From: Acidobacteriota bacterium
GTDB lineage: Bacteria > Acidobacteriota > Thermoanaerobaculia > Thermoanaerobaculales > Sulfomarinibacteraceae
Assembly (NCBI GenBank): GCA_013152925.1
Contig: JAADFK010000107.1
Span: forward strand, 1 to 49,327
Direction of reading: 5' to 3'
Length of the DNA stretch: 49,327 nt
Shown here: positions 11,290 to 43,739 of the stretch, piece by piece
How positions within the stretch are numbered: position 1 is the stretch's first letter
How the letters are laid out: each line of letters begins with the position of its first letter
The notes under the pieces: generated by a model
Database searches by the model: none
What the model was told of the DNA's origin: nothing
What the model saw: the letters and a program-made list of their open reading frames with translations, nothing else
Program-made: the position numbers and the translations under genes

Positions 11290-12144
11290 TCAGCCCTGGC
11301 GTTGGTGCGTACCGCTCTCTTTTCGGTGGTAGGGGACTGGGATAAACTCCACGGTGGGCGCGTGGCGGGTCGGCTGAGGGTGAAGCTCCATCAGCTCATA
11401 GATTTCTCGCGGCATGTCCGTGGAAACTGAAAGCCCGCTTTCCCTGACATCGTCCACGCCAAAGGCATGGTCATGTGTGAAATGACCCTGGGAGAGCCTC
11501 TCGGTCAACGCGTCCACCTTCTCGTCCGGGATCTGCCCTTGAAGCAGCTCCCTGACCGTGTCCCCCACCTGTTTGAGGGCCATCCTGGCCTGGTCGGCCT
11601 GGATCAGGGTCTCGTCGTCGCACTCCTTGACGCCCTTGGCCTCCACCACGCGAACGAGGCTGGCCGCCGCCCGCTGGCCGAGCTGGGGATCCACGGGTCC
11701 AAGGACGGCACTATGATCCATGACGATCTCGTCCGCCGCCAGGGCGATCAGGGTCCCGCCCGACATGGCGTAGTGGGGCACGAAGACCGTGGTCTTCGCC
11801 GGGTGCCGCTTGATGGCCCGGGCGATTTGCTCGGCGGCGAGCACGAGCCCTCCCGGCGTGTGGAGCACCAGGTCGATGGGGACCTCCCCGTCCGTCAGCT
11901 TGATGGCCCGCAGGATCTGCTCGGAGTCCTGGATGTCGATGAACTTGACCAGGGGAAAGCCCAGGAAGCTCATCTGCTCCTGGCGATGGATCAGCGTGAT
12001 GACCCGGCTACCCCGCCGGCGTTCCAGTGCCCGCATCAGCTTGAGGCGGGCCGAGGTCAGCATCCTCTGCTGCAACAGGGGCTGCAAGGAGACGATAATC
12101 AGGAAGATCCAGAACAGACTCCCGAGGTTGAATCCGTGATCCAT
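11290..12144 (-). CDS. Membrane-anchored Clp-fold serine protease, SDH proteinase family
   Basis: A 284-residue protein. Residues about 8-26 (LGSLFWIFLIIVSLQPLLQ) form a single N-terminal membrane anchor. The rest is a ClpP/crotonase-fold domain like the serine dehydrogenase proteinase family, related to SppA. The oxyanion strand is DLVLHTPGG near residue 91-99, and the putative nucleophile is Ser128 in HYAMSGGTLIA. A VLGPVDPQLG loop follows, with a helical lid up to FTHDHAFGVDDV. Such proteins are thought to cut membrane or secreted peptides near the inner membrane; no substrate is evident. The ATG at 12144 follows GGGAGG. It appears to be a single-gene unit. Confidence 0.83.
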   Translation of the reverse strand: MDHGFNLGSLFWIFLIIVSLQPLLQQRMLTSARLKLMRALERRRGSRVITLIHRQEQMSFLGFPLVKFIDIQDSEQILRAIKLTDGEVPIDLVLHTPGGLVLAAEQIARAIKRHPAKTTVFVPHYAMSGGTLIALAADEIVMDHSAVLGPVDPQLGQRAAASLVRVVEAKGVKECDDETLIQADQARMALKQVGDTVRELLQGQIPDEKVDALTERLSQGHFTHDHAFGVDDVRESGLSVSTDMPREIYELMELHPQPTRHAPTVEFIPVPYHRKESGTHQRQG

Positions 12145-12303: not shown

Positions 12304-13452
12304 TCACTGCGCTACGGGTTTCTCGTAGAAGCGATAGGTCCTGTACAGCTTGCCGTCCATGATCTTGATGGTGCCCTTGACCAGCTCGTTGTCCTCCAGG
12401 ATCCACGAGTACTCCGACCACGAGTAGCCGATGCGGAGCGCCTCCTGAATCGACTCGTAGACCAGCATCCCCTCGATGCCCCGCTTCCGGAACCTTTGCT
12501 TGACCCCCATGGTGATGACTCTCAAGCCCTCCATGGTCTCCGGTTTGGACTTCAGGAGATGCCCGAGGGTCCTCAGAGGGTGCTTCCAGGGGGAGCCATC
12601 CAGATCCTTGAGCACCGGGTTCCAGTCGGGCACGGCGAGGATGAAGCCTGCCACCTCGCCGTCGAGGAAGGCGAAGCGCAGGAGATCCGGCTGGACCAGC
12701 GGCTTGAGCTCGCGGGCCAGCCAGTTGATCTCCCCTTCGGACATGGGGATGAAACCCCAGTTCTTTTCCCAGGCGTCGTTGTAGATCTCCTGCACCAGCT
12801 GGACCTCGCCGTGAAAGTCCTTGAGGTTGGCCTTCCGTGTTGTTACACCGGGGTATTTCCTCCGGGCCCTCTCGACCAGACGTCCCAGCCGGTCCAGGCT
12901 CCGTCCATGGACCGGGGAGATGTACGCGTAGAGATCCTTGACCTTGGCGTAGCCGGCTTCCTCCAGGAGAGACGGGTAGTACCCCGGGTTGTAGGTCATC
13001 ATCAGAACGGGCGGCCCGTCGAAACCCTCGATCAAGAGCCCGCACTCGTAGTTGGTCGAGGGGTTGGCTGGCCCACGGACGGCATCCAGCTTCCTGCCCG
13101 CCCCCCATGCCTCGACGGCGGCCATCAACCCCTCCGCCACCTCCATCCGGTCGACCGACTCGAAGAACCCGAAGAAGCCGATGTTTTCCCCGTGGTAACG
13201 GTTGTGGGCGTGGTTGAGGATGGCCGCCACACGGCCCACAACCTGCCGTCCCTCCCACGCCAGAAAGAGCTCGATCTCGGCGTCCTGACCACCGCCGTAA
13301 AAGGGATGCTTCTCCTGATCGAGGAGCTCGCGGACCGAGGCCTTGAGCGGCGGCACCCAGTTGGGATCGTTCCGGTAGATCCGCCAGGGAAGATCGATGA
13401 ACAGGGCCAGATCGCCCCGACCGCGGACCGGACGCACCTCGATGGCAGCCAT
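12304..13452 (-). CDS. bcerS: Probable bacterial ceramide synthase, GNAT-like N-acyltransferase
   Basis: A 382-residue protein of the GNAT-like family that accompanies serine palmitoyltransferase genes in bacteria. In Caulobacter a protein of this kind, annotated as a GCN5-related acetyltransferase, is the ceramide synthase that N-acylates the sphingoid base. Visible features are an N-terminal RIYRNDPNWVPPL motif, a first acyltransferase-like core (VGRVAAILNHAHNRYHGE, GFFGFFESVDR), a conserved VRGPANPSTNYECGLLIEG block, and a second core with FAFLDGEVAGFILAVPD and MGVKQRFRKRGIEGMLV, the usual CoA-pyrophosphate loop position of GNAT folds. It ends TYRFYEKPVAQ. The ATG overlaps the spt stop (TGATG), so it is translated with spt. 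The family is certain by context and motifs; the reaction is inferred. Confidence 0.78.
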   Translation of the reverse strand: MAAIEVRPVRGRGDLALFIDLPWRIYRNDPNWVPPLKASVRELLDQEKHPFYGGGQDAEIELFLAWEGRQVVGRVAAILNHAHNRYHGENIGFFGFFESVDRMEVAEGLMAAVEAWGAGRKLDAVRGPANPSTNYECGLLIEGFDGPPVLMMTYNPGYYPSLLEEAGYAKVKDLYAYISPVHGRSLDRLGRLVERARRKYPGVTTRKANLKDFHGEVQLVQEIYNDAWEKNWGFIPMSEGEINWLARELKPLVQPDLLRFAFLDGEVAGFILAVPDWNPVLKDLDGSPWKHPLRTLGHLLKSKPETMEGLRVITMGVKQRFRKRGIEGMLVYESIQEALRIGYSWSEYSWILEDNELVKGTIKIMDGKLYRTYRFYEKPVAQ

Positions 13453-14636
13453 CAGCCGATCACTCCAAGCTCCCGGCCGACCTTGGCAAAGGCTGCCAGG
13501 GCTCGATCCAAATGTTCACGGGTGTGCGTGGCCATGTAGGAGGTACGGATCATGGCCCGCCCCGGCGGCACCGCCGGGGAAACCACGGGGTTGACGAAAG
13601 CGCCTTCTTCAGCGAGCCGTTTGGTCATCATGAACGCTGTCATGTCCTCGCCCACCACCAGGGGAATGACCGGCGAGTCGGCGTTGCCCGTGTCGTAGCC
13701 AAGGCCCTTGAGCTCACGGGCCATGTAGGCCGTGTTGTCCCAGAGCCGCTGCCGGCGCTCGGGCTCCCGCTGGATGATCTCCAGGGCCTTGCGGACCGAG
13801 GCCACCGACGCCGGGGGCGGCGAGGCCGAGAAGATCAACGGCCGGGCCGTGTGCTGGATCCAGTCGATGACCTTGGCCTCGCCGGCGATGTAGCCGCCGA
13901 CGGCCGCCAGCGACTTGGAGAAGGTCCCCATGATGAGGTCCACATCCTCCTCGACGCCGAAGTGCTCCGGCGTGCCCCGGCCGTTCTTCCCGAAGACACC
14001 CACCGCGTGGGCATCGTCGACCATGAGGCGCGCACCGTGCCGCTTCTTGAGCTCCACGAGCTTCGGCAGGTCGGCCAGGTCGCCCTCCATGGAGAAGACA
14101 CCGTCCACGACGATCAGCTTGCCCTTGTCCGTATCGGCCACCTCGAGACGGTGCTCCAGGTCCTCGAGGTCGTTGTGGCGGAACTTGACCGTCCTGCCGA
14201 AACCCAGCCGGGCGCCGTCGATGATGCAGGCGTGATCGTAGGCGTCAAGGAAGACCATGTCGCGGCGGTCCAGAAGGCAGGCGATGGTCCCCAGGTTGAC
14301 CTGGAAACCCGTGGAAAAGGTCAGGGCGCGCTCCCGGCCGAGAAAGTGTGCCAGCTCCTCCTCGAGCTGGACATGAATGTCCAGGGTACCGTTGAGGAAC
14401 CGGGACCCGGCGGTTCCGCTGCCGAACTCCCGGACCGCCTGGATGGCGGCCTCCTTGATCTCGGGATGGCTGGTCAATCCAAGGTAGTTGTTGGAGCCCA
14501 GCATGACCAGCTCACGCCCGTCCATGATCACCACGGGGTCCTGGCCCGACGAGATGGAGCGGAAATAGGGGTAGAAGCCCGACCGGCGGGCCTCCTCGGC
14601 GTCCTCGAAATCGAAGCACTTCTGGAATACGTCCAC
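13452..14636 (-). CDS. spt: Serine palmitoyltransferase (PLP-dependent alpha-oxoamine synthase)
   Basis: A 394-residue, soluble type-I-fold PLP enzyme that condenses serine with an acyl thioester to a 3-ketosphingoid base. It has the AOS family blocks SNNYLGL (residue 48), GTAGSRFLNGTLDIH (74), FSTGFQVN (107), DAYDHACIIDGARL (131) and FRHNDLEDLE (152). VDGVFSMEGDLADLP comes at 176, DDAHAVGVFG at 207 and the PLP lysine in GTFSKSLAAVGG (Lys about 241). SRFLNGTLDIHVQLEEELA and YPYFRSISS are closer to bacterial Spt than to KBL or BioF. I moved the start to GTG 14636, which follows GGAGGTCAT; the reading further upstream is untranslated leader. Its neighbours cerR and bcerS support the sphingolipid assignment over glycine C-acetyltransferase, which stays as an alternative. 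Confidence 0.83.
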   Translation of the reverse strand: MDVFQKCFDFEDAEEARRSGFYPYFRSISSGQDPVVIMDGRELVMLGSNNYLGLTSHPEIKEAAIQAVREFGSGTAGSRFLNGTLDIHVQLEEELAHFLGRERALTFSTGFQVNLGTIACLLDRRDMVFLDAYDHACIIDGARLGFGRTVKFRHNDLEDLEHRLEVADTDKGKLIVVDGVFSMEGDLADLPKLVELKKRHGARLMVDDAHAVGVFGKNGRGTPEHFGVEEDVDLIMGTFSKSLAAVGGYIAGEAKVIDWIQHTARPLIFSASPPPASVASVRKALEIIQREPERRQRLWDNTAYMARELKGLGYDTGNADSPVIPLVVGEDMTAFMMTKRLAEEGAFVNPVVSPAVPPGRAMIRTSYMATHTREHLDRALAAFAKVGRELGVIG

Positions 14637-14671
14637 ATGACCTCCGTACGGGCCTGGCCCGTCGTCGAATC

Positions 14672-15700
14672 TTACCGCAGCCAGCCCATTTCCCGGTACC
14701 ACGCCCACGTCAGCGCCGCGCCCCTGGGAAACTCGACCCACTCCGAGATACCAAGGGCTTCCAGGGAATCGTGTGTCCTCAGCGTCCAGTGCCGGGCGGT
14801 CAGCTCCCGGGCCTTGTCGCGAGTCATGGCGACCTTCCTGAAACCCAGGTGCTGTAAACCGCTTCCCGCCGTCCCCACGATCCCGAGGAGCGTTTCCGGA
14901 AGGGGGATGATCCGCGCCCTGACACCGCCGGCCCCGGCCAACAGCTGGACGAGCGCTGTCATGCGGTACGGGTAGGGCTCCCCAAGGTGGTAAACCCGCC
15001 CCGTGACAACACCCGGACGCGCTGCCGCCAGGATGGCCCGCACCACGTCACCGACCCAGGCCATGGTCACCCACCTGTCCCCCCGGGGGATGGGCACGAT
15101 CCCGCGGGAGGCCAGCCTGAAGAACTGGAGCACGTCGATGTCGCGCGGGCCGAAGATGGCCGGCGGCCGCAGGATCAACCAGCTGCCCCCCGCCCCCAAT
15201 CGGCGAATCTCCTCCTCCGCCCCCAGCTTGGAGCGGCCGTAAGCCGAGATTGGGTGTGGCTCCGCCTCGGGTCCCAGCCCGTCGATTCCGGGTGAGGGAC
15301 CCAGGGCCGCCTGGGAGGAGACATGGACCACGCGGGCCATCGGGGCCACCTCGCGCACCGCCTCCACGAGCCGGGCAGTTCCCTCCCGGTTGCCACGCTC
15401 GAACGCCTCCGTGCTGGCGGCCCGGACGACACCTGCCAGGTGGAGCACCGTCCGAGCGCCTTCTACCAGCGTGCGAAGGGCCTCACCGTCCTCCAGGGAG
15501 CCCTCCACGAAATCCGCACCGGCCCCGGCGATCCAGCGTGGGCTCGCCGGGTCCCGCACCAGGACCCTCGGCCGGATCCCGGCGGCGCACAGTGTCTCCA
15601 CCACGTGGGACCCGACGAAGCCCGTCCCGCCCGTCAGCGCGACGGGTTCCTCGAGCCCCTGAGCGGCCCCGGCCCCGACCAGAGGAGAATCAGCCGCCAT
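14672..15700 (-). CDS. cerR: NAD-dependent epimerase/dehydratase, probable ceramide reductase CerR
   Basis: A 342-residue extended short-chain dehydrogenase. The Rossmann motif is VALTGGTGFVGSHV near residue 21-34. The active-site strand VVHVSSQAALGPSPG is followed by Tyr-x-x-x-Lys in SAYGRSKLGAEE, and LRPPAIFGPRD closes the fold. The C-terminal half carries the YHLGEPYPYRM block that positions substrate. In Caulobacter an enzyme of this superfamily reduces the 3-keto group of ceramide after N-acylation, and its gene sits beside spt. Here cerR, spt and bcerS follow in order. The ATG at 15700 overlaps the end of queD by 11 bases. No Shine-Dalgarno is obvious, so it probably depends on coupling. 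The exact substrate is inferred from context. Confidence 0.75.
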   Translation of the reverse strand: MAADSPLVGAGAAQGLEEPVALTGGTGFVGSHVVETLCAAGIRPRVLVRDPASPRWIAGAGADFVEGSLEDGEALRTLVEGARTVLHLAGVVRAASTEAFERGNREGTARLVEAVREVAPMARVVHVSSQAALGPSPGIDGLGPEAEPHPISAYGRSKLGAEEEIRRLGAGGSWLILRPPAIFGPRDIDVLQFFRLASRGIVPIPRGDRWVTMAWVGDVVRAILAAARPGVVTGRVYHLGEPYPYRMTALVQLLAGAGGVRARIIPLPETLLGIVGTAGSGLQHLGFRKVAMTRDKARELTARHWTLRTHDSLEALGISEWVEFPRGAALTWAWYREMGWLR

Positions 15701-16163
15701 CGGCCACGTACTCGGCCCACGACGTGGCCGTTTCCCAGAGCCGGACACGCTCGAGCTCGAGCCATTCCGGAAGATGGTAGACCACGCCGCTGGGCGCGAC
15801 GATTTCGCGGCCCGAGGCCAGGCGCCGCGAGATCTCGTCGAAGAGCCACCGGACCACCGTCTCGGAGGTGGGGTCGGCCCCTTCGAAGAGCACAACCCGT
15901 TCGCTCATGGCCTCCACGGCCTCCCGGTGGGGGTCTCCGGCGTTGATCGCCACGGCGTGGTCCAGCTGGCGAACGAGCTCCAGAACCAGGGTCTTGAGGG
16001 CCTTGTAGTCGCAGACCATGTCGTTGTCGTCCAGGCGGTCCCCGCGCACGACCACCTCGATCCGCAACCGGTGCCCGTGGGGAAAGCGGCACCTCTCCCG
16101 GTGCTTGGACAGCCGGTGTGCGTACTCCGCTTCGAAAGTCTTGGCGATCCGGTAGTAACCCAA
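15690..16163 (-). CDS. queD: 6-carboxytetrahydropterin synthase (QueD/PTPS family)
   Basis: A 157-residue PTPS-fold enzyme. QueD converts dihydroneopterin triphosphate to 6-carboxytetrahydropterin, the second step to queuosine and other deazapurines. The zinc site is visible: a first His in YAHRL, then CRFPHGHRLRIEV, which contains the catalytic Cys and two His ligands. A later LDHAVAIN carries the catalytic His, and PTSETVVRWLF the substrate Glu. The start is TTG 16163 (residues LGYYRIAKTF...), nine bases after GGAGGGGG. No ATG or GTG fits, and upstream frames are non-coding. It is about 315 bases downstream of queE and translationally overlaps cerR. Confidence 0.88.
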   Translation of the reverse strand: MGYYRIAKTFEAEYAHRLSKHRERCRFPHGHRLRIEVVVRGDRLDDNDMVCDYKALKTLVLELVRQLDHAVAINAGDPHREAVEAMSERVVLFEGADPTSETVVRWLFDEISRRLASGREIVAPSGVVYHLPEWLELERVRLWETATSWAEYVADGG

Positions 16164-16478
16164 GGCAATCCCCCTCCGGCCCGGGCCCGAGCCCCGCCCG
16201 GAGGCGCAGTGTAGCGAATGTGCCGCCAAGGGCACAAGCGCATCACCCCGATGGCTCCACCCGGGCGATCCAGCGCAGGGCGGGGATACCCCCGGGCGTG
16301 GCCTCCCTCCCGGCCTTGAAGCTATGTTCCGGGGCACATTTCGCCGGATCGTGGATCGAAGAGAGAACAGAAGAACGGAAAAGAACAGTTTCCCCGTCGT
16401 TGTTGGAAGGCTGAGTGGTGCACCCTGCAGCGCCAAACCTGCCTTCAGGGACCGGCATCGTTCTCCCGCTCGCCCCGG
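16164..16478. other. Intergenic region between queE and queD
   Basis: About 315 bases with no supported gene. The queD-proximal end holds a candidate promoter (16208-16237) and the GGAGGGGG ribosome site. The queE-proximal half has no clear terminator. I looked for a preQ1-type riboswitch before queD and saw none. Confidence 0.4.
16208..16237 (-). promoter_or_regulatory. Candidate promoter of queD-cerR-spt-bcerS
   Basis: On the minus strand TTGTGC (16237-16232) and TACACT (16213-16208) are separated by 18 bases. Transcription would begin near 16201, leaving a 38-base leader with GGAGGGGG before the TTG start of queD. It would drive the whole ceramide operon. Confidence 0.45.
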
Positions 16479-17156
16479 TCAGACACCCCGGCCGCCGCCG
16501 AAGAGGTCAAGATGCAGGCGTGGGCCGAAGCGGAACCCGTGTTCCAGGCAAAGCGCAGCCACCCCGGGCGCGCGGTGGGCCAGCTCCTCACGGGTCCTGG
16601 CCTCGGGCATCAGGAAGACCCGGTCCCGGCGCGCCGCGGGAAGCGCCTCCAGGAGCTCCACGACCTCCGGCAGGTCTTCCGCCCCGCGGACGACGAACTT
16701 CAGCTGATGCTCCGGGAAGCGGACCAGCAGGCCACGCAACGGCTCCAGATCAGCCCGAATCCGCCGGTGACGTCTCCGCCAGGTGCCCCCGGGGTCAGAG
16801 TTGGAGGTCTTGGGCGAGACCGACAGCAGGTCGCACTCGAGCTCCGGCGCAAGGGTTCCCGCCGTCTCGACCGTCAGGTGCAGGCCTCGCTCCCTCAACG
16901 CGTGGCAGAGGGCGCCGAGCTCCCGTTGGAGCAGCGGCTCCCCCCCGGTCAGCACCACGTGGCGCACGCCCGAACCGGCGGCCTCGGCCACCAGCCCGGG
17001 AAACGGCCGGCGAGCCCCTTCCGGTTCCCACGAAGCGTACGGCGTGTCGCACCAGGCGCAGCGCAGGTTGCAGCCCGCCGTGCGGATGAAGAACGACGGC
17101 ACGCCGGCCAGGATCCCCTCCCCCTGCAAGCTGACGAAGGTCTCGGCCACGTACAT
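16479..17156 (-). CDS. queE: 7-carboxy-7-deazaguanine synthase, radical SAM
   Basis: A 225-residue radical SAM enzyme that converts 6-carboxytetrahydropterin to 7-carboxy-7-deazaguanine for queuosine. The N-terminal GEG and PSFFIRTAGCNLRC segment contains the cluster motif CNLRCAWC (Cys-x3-Cys-x2-Cys). A TGGEPLLQ motif follows at about residue 69 (the GGE binds SAM), with ETAGTL and SVSPKTSNSD after it. The chain is shorter than full-length radical SAM enzymes, as expected for QueE. The ATG has no Shine-Dalgarno but has TACGGT six bases upstream. queE lies 315 bases upstream of queD on the same strand, and tgt is elsewhere in the window. Confidence 0.93.
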   Translation of the reverse strand: MYVAETFVSLQGEGILAGVPSFFIRTAGCNLRCAWCDTPYASWEPEGARRPFPGLVAEAAGSGVRHVVLTGGEPLLQRELGALCHALRERGLHLTVETAGTLAPELECDLLSVSPKTSNSDPGGTWRRRHRRIRADLEPLRGLLVRFPEHQLKFVVRGAEDLPEVVELLEALPAARRDRVFLMPEARTREELAHRAPGVAALCLEHGFRFGPRLHLDLFGGGRGV

Positions 17157-42608: not shown

Positions 42609-43739
42609 TCACACCCCTGCCCTACGCCCGGCCTCGGTCCGAAGACGGAAGGCGGCATAACGGCGCGTCATGATAGCGTCCCGCGCCTGCCGCATCAAGT
42701 CGAGGAAGAAACTCAGATTGTGAACCGTCAGCAAAACCACCGAGGCGGCCTCCCTCGAGATGAAAAGATGGCGCAGCGCACCGCGGCAGTAGCGGGCACA
42801 GGTCGGGCAGGAACAGTCCGGATCCAGGGGGCCGTCGTCGTCGGCGAAGCGGGCGTTCTTGATCACCAGCTCGCCCCGCGAGGTGAACACCTTGCCGGTT
42901 CGGGCCGACCGCGTCGGCAGGACGCAATCGAAGAGGTCGACGCCGCAGGCGACAGCGTGCAGCAGGTCCTCGGGATAGCCCACACCCATCAGGTACCTGG
43001 GCCGCTCCTCCGGCAGGAGGGGTGCCGAGAAAGCGATGGCCTCGTGAAGCACCTCGCGCGGCTCGCCCACCGCCAGCCCCCCGATGGCGAAGCCGTCGAA
43101 GGGATGCTCCGCCAGGCCCTCGCTGCACCGTGCGCGGAGCTCGCGGTCCACCGAGCCCTGCTGGATCGCGAAGAGGCCTCCCCGCCACGGTCCCTCCCTC
43201 CGGAGAACCTCCACCCGCCGCAGGCCGCGGAGCGCCCATCGCAGGGAGCGTTTCATGGAGGATTCAGCCGCCCTTCGATCCACGGGCCACGGAAGACATT
43301 CGTCCAGGACCATGGCCACGTCCACGCCGAAGCCCGCCTCGAGCTCCACCACGGACTCCGGCGTCAGGCGATGACGGCTTCCATCCAGGTGGGACTGGAA
43401 GGTCACGCCGTCATCGTCCAGCTGGCGGCGACCCGCCAGCGAGAACACCTGGTACCCGCCCGAGTCCGTCAGGATGGGGCCGTCCCAGGCCATCATGCGG
43501 TGCAGGCCGCCCAGGCGACGGAGACGTTCGGGCCCCGGCCGGAGCATCAGGTGGTAGGTGTTGGCCAACACCATCTCGGGCGCCAAGCGGTCCAGCTCCC
43601 AGGCGGCGAGCCCCTTGACCGAGCCCGCCGTGCCCACCGGCATGAACGCCGGCGTGTGGACGGTGCCGTGCGGGGTCTCCAGCTCCGCCGCTCTGGCCGC
43701 CGTCGCCGGATCGCGGGCCGTGACCCGGAAGGGAAGCAT
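42609..43739 (-). CDS. tgt: Queuine/preQ1 tRNA-ribosyltransferase
   Basis: A 376-residue TIM-barrel enzyme that swaps guanine-34 for preQ1 in GUN-anticodon tRNAs. The active-site Asp is in LTDSGGYQVFSL (near residue 90). GGLAVGEP and LMGVGYPEDLL follow in the barrel, with FDCVLPTRSARTGKVF (nucleophile Asp in FDCV, about 262-265). The zinc site is DCSCPTCARYCRGALRHLF with three Cys, and His later in TVHN. The start ATG overlaps the lolA stop (TGATG). It is followed by yajC-secD-secF, an order found in many proteobacteria. With queD and queE also here, the cell makes queuosine itself. Confidence 0.95.
   Translation of the reverse strand: MLPFRVTARDPATAARAAELETPHGTVHTPAFMPVGTAGSVKGLAAWELDRLAPEMVLANTYHLMLRPGPERLRRLGGLHRMMAWDGPILTDSGGYQVFSLAGRRQLDDDGVTFQSHLDGSRHRLTPESVVELEAGFGVDVAMVLDECLPWPVDRRAAESSMKRSLRWALRGLRRVEVLRREGPWRGGLFAIQQGSVDRELRARCSEGLAEHPFDGFAIGGLAVGEPREVLHEAIAFSAPLLPEERPRYLMGVGYPEDLLHAVACGVDLFDCVLPTRSARTGKVFTSRGELVIKNARFADDDGPLDPDCSCPTCARYCRGALRHLFISREAASVVLLTVHNLSFFLDLMRQARDAIMTRRYAAFRLRTEAGRRAGV

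Follow-up and report, generated by a model that had tools for sequence, protein, structure and literature searches.

The ceramide genes CC_1154, CC_1164 and CC_1162 of Caulobacter crescentus are listed with yghO, ECD_02852 (epi) and ECD_02854 (spt) of Escherichia coli (PMC9386255; PMC11324152), and YghO and CC_1154 are listed as the N-acyltransferase of dihydroceramide synthesis (PMC9386255). Serine palmitoyltransferases (Spts) of the Bacteroidetes type are reported to use acyl-CoA, and rhodobacterial Spts to prefer AcpR (PMC11324152). The order of acylation and reduction in the route is disputed (PMC11087976), and genes of the sphingolipid route were found in 38 phyla in a study of the Black Sea (PMC11334938). 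We analyzed a stretch of 49,327 nucleotides (hereafter, the window) from an Acidobacteriota bacterium, and found that three consecutive genes, cerR, spt and bcerS, very probably encode this known ceramide-backbone route, judging from their sequences. This reading draws on gene anatomy, family assignments from trees, conserved catalytic residues, and a gene set that is kept in other phyla. The window is contig C107 (JAADFK010000107.1) of a 3.67-Mb genome that is 96% complete. The nearest named relatives of the bcerS product are from metagenome-assembled genomes of Thermoanaerobaculia and Holophagae (Acidobacteriota; 63-71% identity), and the genome is that of an acidobacteriote near Thermoanaerobaculia.

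The three genes are tightly packed on the minus strand. The first, cerR (15700-14672), has an ATG at 15700 and a TAA stop at 14674-14672 and encodes an extended short-chain dehydrogenase/reductase (SDR) of 342 amino acids (PF01370, 1.9e-27) that is a candidate ceramide or 3-ketosphinganine reductase. It is followed by spt (14636-13452; 394 amino acids) and by bcerS (13452-12304; 382 amino acids), which encodes a tandem GNAT N-acyltransferase and candidate ceramide synthase. The 35-base spacer between cerR and spt (14637-14671, minus strand) has CGGAGG, which resembles a ribosome-binding site, close to its end and before the GTG at 14636. The mechanical open reading frame of spt begins farther upstream; we set the start at this GTG because homologues align from that point. 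At the junction of spt and bcerS (...GGCTGATGGCT...), the stop of one gene and the start of the other overlap as TGATG (13450-13454, minus strand), with base 13452 common to both. The initial annotation gave the extent of the locus (12304-15700), the gap of 35 bases and the overlap as TGATG, all of which proved exact when read directly from the sequence. The three open reading frames have the pattern expected of coding DNA, with a G+C content of 0.82-0.86 at the third codon position and 0.39-0.60 at the second. The closest relatives (L045-L049 and L174) have homologues of cerR, spt and bcerS arranged in this order, and this excludes a chance origin of the set. Scans for promoters and terminators found nothing clearly above shuffled sequence.

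The product of spt belongs with the serine palmitoyltransferases. It is 52% identical to the solved Spt of Sphingobacterium multivorum (PDB 3a2b, E 8.7e-134), 41% to 2x8u, which we take to be an Spt of the alphaproteobacterial type, 38.5% to E. coli Spt, 40% to KBL and 32% to BioF. The initial annotation had proposed a tree of Spt against KBL and BioF. In our maximum-likelihood tree, the window protein is in an Spt clade of 80 rows (support 100/99) together with the E. coli Spt and the two solved ones. KBL, BioF and the paralogues from the same genome fall outside this clade; one of these paralogues (L002) groups with BioF. The active-site residues N49, H135, D207, H210, K241 and R364 are kept, their counterparts in S. 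multivorum being Asn52, His138, Asp210, His213, Lys244 and Arg367. The roles of some of these residues are background, in part from PMC9304779. The best-scoring NCBIfam model was NF047600, the CFB serine palmitoyltransferase (567 bits).

The product of bcerS is in the YghO/CC_1154 family, which is named CerS in the literature; this assignment comes from sequence comparison. The protein is about 40-73% identical to its best homologues within Acidobacteriota, and it is 34% identical to E. coli YghO over residues 4-380, indicating full-length homology. No NCBIfam model covers it. The AlphaFold model is a tandem GNAT with a mean predicted local distance difference test score (pLDDT) of 91.8. Its best matches in the PDB were tandem GNATs (Z up to 23.7), followed by N-myristoyltransferases (Z about 15). 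N-myristoyltransferase uses long acyl-CoA. Likeness of a predicted fold to known enzymes does not, however, show function. We also noticed a second group of bCerS-like proteins (L165-L173) in several Acidobacteriota, whose identity to the spt-linked proteins is about 24-32% and which have no spt within a few kilobases. They may be N-acyltransferases of another kind or ceramide synthases encoded apart from spt.

The product of cerR has the features of a reductase of the CerR group. The nucleotide-binding motif TGGTGFVG, the YxxxK motif (as YGRSK) and the two-serine motif are kept, and the predicted structure has the SDR fold (pLDDT 95.3), with PDB matches that include 3wj7 and the NDUFA9-type subunits of complex I. 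The likeness to NDUFA9 is in sequence and fold and is unspecific, since other SDRs match too. Because the extended SDRs of the same genome were too distant to serve alone as an outgroup, HpnA was added; of two paralogues from the same genome, L127 was placed in the outgroup and L126 left out. In the resulting tree, the E. coli CerR homologue, SDRs encoded beside spt in many phyla and the window protein form one group (94/96); HpnA is separate from this group (100/100), as are sugar-nucleotide enzymes and epimerases. An SDR encoded beside a bcerS gene elsewhere (L032) falls outside the CerR group. The Rossmann motif begins at about residue 20. The sequence ahead of this motif lacks a hydrophobic stretch, and no export signal is visible at the N-terminus; export by another way may still be conceivable. 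Trees of the SDR and of the GNAT had also been proposed in the initial annotation, and in both the window protein falls with spt-linked homologues of other phyla. The trees and the conserved residues thus support its assignment of the three genes to Spt, a GNAT ceramide synthase and CerR.

The association of bcerS with spt extends well beyond this genome. We inspected 80 named loci, which were the best matches to a GNAT profile, chosen by similarity to the query rather than at random, and included none from Caulobacter. In 65 of the 80, the GNAT gene has an spt on its own strand within 600 bases, and in 48 of these 65 an SDR also occurs within the stretch examined. The SDR differs in position and strand from locus to locus. 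E. coli AcpR and AasR had no match at 1e-8 in any of the 80, which is a weak test for a protein as short as AcpR. Among 247 Acidobacteriota genomes, 45 had both a strong bCerS and a strong Spt, 7 had bCerS alone, 10 had Spt alone and 185 had neither. That is, a strong Spt was present in 45/52 genomes with a strong bCerS versus 10/195 of the others (Fisher p 5e-32, with the relatedness of genomes ignored).

The loci also differ in ways that bear on gene arrangement. In three loci from Myxococcota (L059, L089 and L106), the SDR lies between two copies of bCerS (spt-bcerS-SDR-bcerS), and the two copies could have two acyl specificities. Bryobacterales-type loci (L058, L061, L063 and L070) end with spt (SDR ... 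bcerS-spt), unlike the class of the window. Full spt-bcerS-SDR sets are found on plasmid records of two Actinomycetota, Streptomyces sp. NBC_01001 and Rubrobacter radiotolerans (L041 and L042), and in the Streptomyces set a condensation-domain gene overlaps the SDR.

We propose that cerR, spt and bcerS, which we infer to be one transcription unit, would make the ceramide (dihydroceramide) backbone, and that the cell presumably produces the lipid. Spt, a soluble pyridoxal-phosphate enzyme of the Bacteroidetes-like type, would join an amino acid and a long-chain acyl thioester to form 3-ketosphinganine. The amino acid is most likely L-serine and the thioester is probably acyl-CoA. The tandem-GNAT bCerS would put a second acyl chain on the amine, and CerR would reduce the 3-keto group with NAD(P)H. 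Translational coupling of spt and bcerS would keep these two enzymes in step. The gene order here does not settle the order of acylation and reduction.

The proposed use of acyl-CoA is consistent with the genes around spt. E. coli AcpR and AasR had no match in the window by tblastn, in agreement with the initial annotation, which had reported no dedicated acyl carrier protein or acyl-ACP synthetase gene nearby; the acpR and aasR that stand with spt in the rhodobacterial five-gene system were likewise not found in the window by this search. The type of Spt would explain the absence of acpR and aasR, since Bacteroidetes-like Spts are those reported to use acyl-CoA. We refine the further claim that the acyl supply must come from elsewhere: with an Spt of the acyl-CoA type, a dedicated carrier protein and synthetase would not be expected. 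The genome has two open reading frames with a PP-binding domain, one beside a FabF-like ketoacyl synthase and one beside an AMP ligase. The latter is on another contig (C165; L162, 1-4232), which has an AMP ligase fragment, a carrier protein, a GNAT and an ABC transporter. We considered this ligase and carrier protein as a hidden aasR-acpR pair and rejected it: the ligase is 28% identical to AasR, AcpR had no match, and an ABC transporter adjoins.

Several other activities of the PLP-dependent enzyme (the spt product) had to be weighed. The same three-enzyme logic would apply if alanine or glycine were condensed and the main products were 1-deoxyceramides or related amino-lipids. The Black Sea work tied Spt-like genes of many phyla to abundant 1-deoxysphingolipids and proposed other amino acids as substrates (PMC11334938), and the residues that we compared do not tell the use of serine from that of alanine. 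Nonetheless, the extent of identity to the solved Sphingobacterium Spt and the active-site residues shared with it make this outcome rather improbable. Condensation of cysteate with an acyl thioester, as by SulA in the sulfonolipid (capnine) pathway, deserved attention because SulA and Spt have the same fold, catalyze the same type of reaction and differ little in the active site (PMC9304779). The two are told apart by Lys281 of SulA, where Ala stands in Spt (PMC9304779). The window protein has Ala at this position (A271), and so has each of the 80 rows in the Spt clade; the residue is Asn in KBL and Thr in BioF. The alanine contradicts a sulfonolipid pathway, and the solved cysteate-C-fatty acyltransferase scored 269 bits versus 450 for Spt; we consider such a pathway very unlikely.

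It is also conceivable that the enzyme is of the KBL or BioF type, acting in threonine breakdown or biotin synthesis and encoded beside an unrelated SDR and GNAT. KBL, BioF and Spt form one superfamily, the window protein shares 47% identity with a BioF/KBL enzyme of Thermus, and no NCBIfam equivalog scored above its cut-off for it. This alternative is made exceedingly improbable by the position in the tree, by A271, by the separate paralogue (L002) that groups with BioF, and by the recurrent linkage to bCerS in other phyla. Based on these results, we file the window protein as a bacterial serine palmitoyltransferase, with formation of 3-ketosphinganine from serine as its predicted activity.

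Some observations weigh against assignment of the three genes to the ceramide route. The window Spt scored below the curated cut-off of NF047600 (567 versus 640 bits), and we do not count it among the members of that equivalog. Support for the deep branches of the bCerS tree is weak, long branches meet there, and the second group of homologues without a link to spt nests near YghO. In the SDR tree, the branch of the window lineage is long, and the deep node that joins it to the CerR homologue of E. coli has barely sufficient support (94/96). The E. coli cluster, whose genes are given as counterparts of the Caulobacter ones in PMC9386255, stood in for the Caulobacter proteins, with CC_1162, CC_1164 and CC_1154 themselves outside the comparison. 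Lastly, the p value for co-occurrence takes no account of shared ancestry, and its bit thresholds were picked after the tables had been seen.

The ceramide genes have conserved neighbors, for which we claim no lipid role. In the direction of transcription on the minus strand, the order is a queD-like gene, the SDR, Spt and GNAT genes, and a ClpP-like protease gene. The queD-like gene (15690-16163; TTG start inferred; PF01242, 5.3e-27) encodes a protein of the 6-pyruvoyl-tetrahydropterin synthase family, and the start of cerR overlaps its stop by 11 bases, an overlap that was absent from the initial annotation. Together, queE and queD (15690-17156) are directly upstream of cerR; five related loci (L045-L049) have queD at this position, and L046 and L174 have queE there. 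This conserved position suggests that in this class cerR, spt and bcerS may share a transcript with queuosine genes. Queuine tRNA-ribosyltransferase (TGT) is encoded elsewhere in the window (42609-43739). About 160 bases past the end of bcerS begins the gene for an SDH-type ClpP-like membrane protease (11290-12144, minus strand; NF047768, above cut-off). It follows bcerS in the same order in close relatives (L011-L013, L045 and L174), and a functional link of this protease to membrane lipid is possible. We found no support for a sphingolipid that replaces lipopolysaccharide, as LpxC is present in the genome.

Compared with known systems, the locus agrees with that of C. crescentus (spt, CC_1162; cerR, CC_1164; cerS, CC_1154; acpR; aasR) (PMC11324152, PMC9386255) in its three enzyme families and in the chemistry inferred for them. 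It differs in that acpR and aasR are not beside the genes and cerS is in the spt unit rather than in a separate operon. In addition, Caulobacter CerR was shown to be periplasmic (PMC11087976), whereas the window CerR has no visible N-terminal signal. It is possible, though we are doubtful, that this lineage assembles the entire backbone in the cytoplasm, with a translationally coupled Spt and bCerS that draw on acyl-CoA and a CerR that works in the same compartment with NAD(P)H. In that case the arrangement in Caulobacter, where AcpR feeds Spt, would be special and derived and not the bacterial rule. The E. coli BL21-type cluster, aasR-cerR-acpR-spt with yghO (plasmid record NZ_MG591698), has 38.5% (Spt), 34% (bCerS/YghO) and 32% (SDR) identity to the window. 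Its Spt scores best with NF047599 and above the cut-off, in contrast to the window Spt, which scores best with the CFB model, and yghO is divergent from the rest of its cluster, whereas bcerS overlaps spt on the same strand.

Among the closest known systems is the Spt of S. multivorum (PDB 3a2b and 8guh), in which all the tested active-site residues are the same. However, in sphingolipid-producing Bacteroidota the three genes are reported not to be close together (PMC11334938), whereas here they are. The R. radiotolerans and Streptomyces sp. NBC_01001 sets have the same three families, tight and on one strand as in the window, with the SDR last rather than first. Solibacter usitatus, for which ceramides are reported in the title of Halamka et al. 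2024 (cited in PMC12619533), is of the same phylum and a different class, and related Bryobacterales loci have their own gene order (see above). The pathway and its wide distribution are already known, and this locus adds one more example. With it, a further class of Acidobacteriota joins the very probable ceramide producers, and its three genes form a single compact unit. The cerS inside the spt unit, here and in many other loci, is a counterexample to the published statement that it is "always a different operon". A compact set of three soluble-looking proteins would be suited to settling whether acylation or reduction comes first, which is disputed, and where CerR is located.
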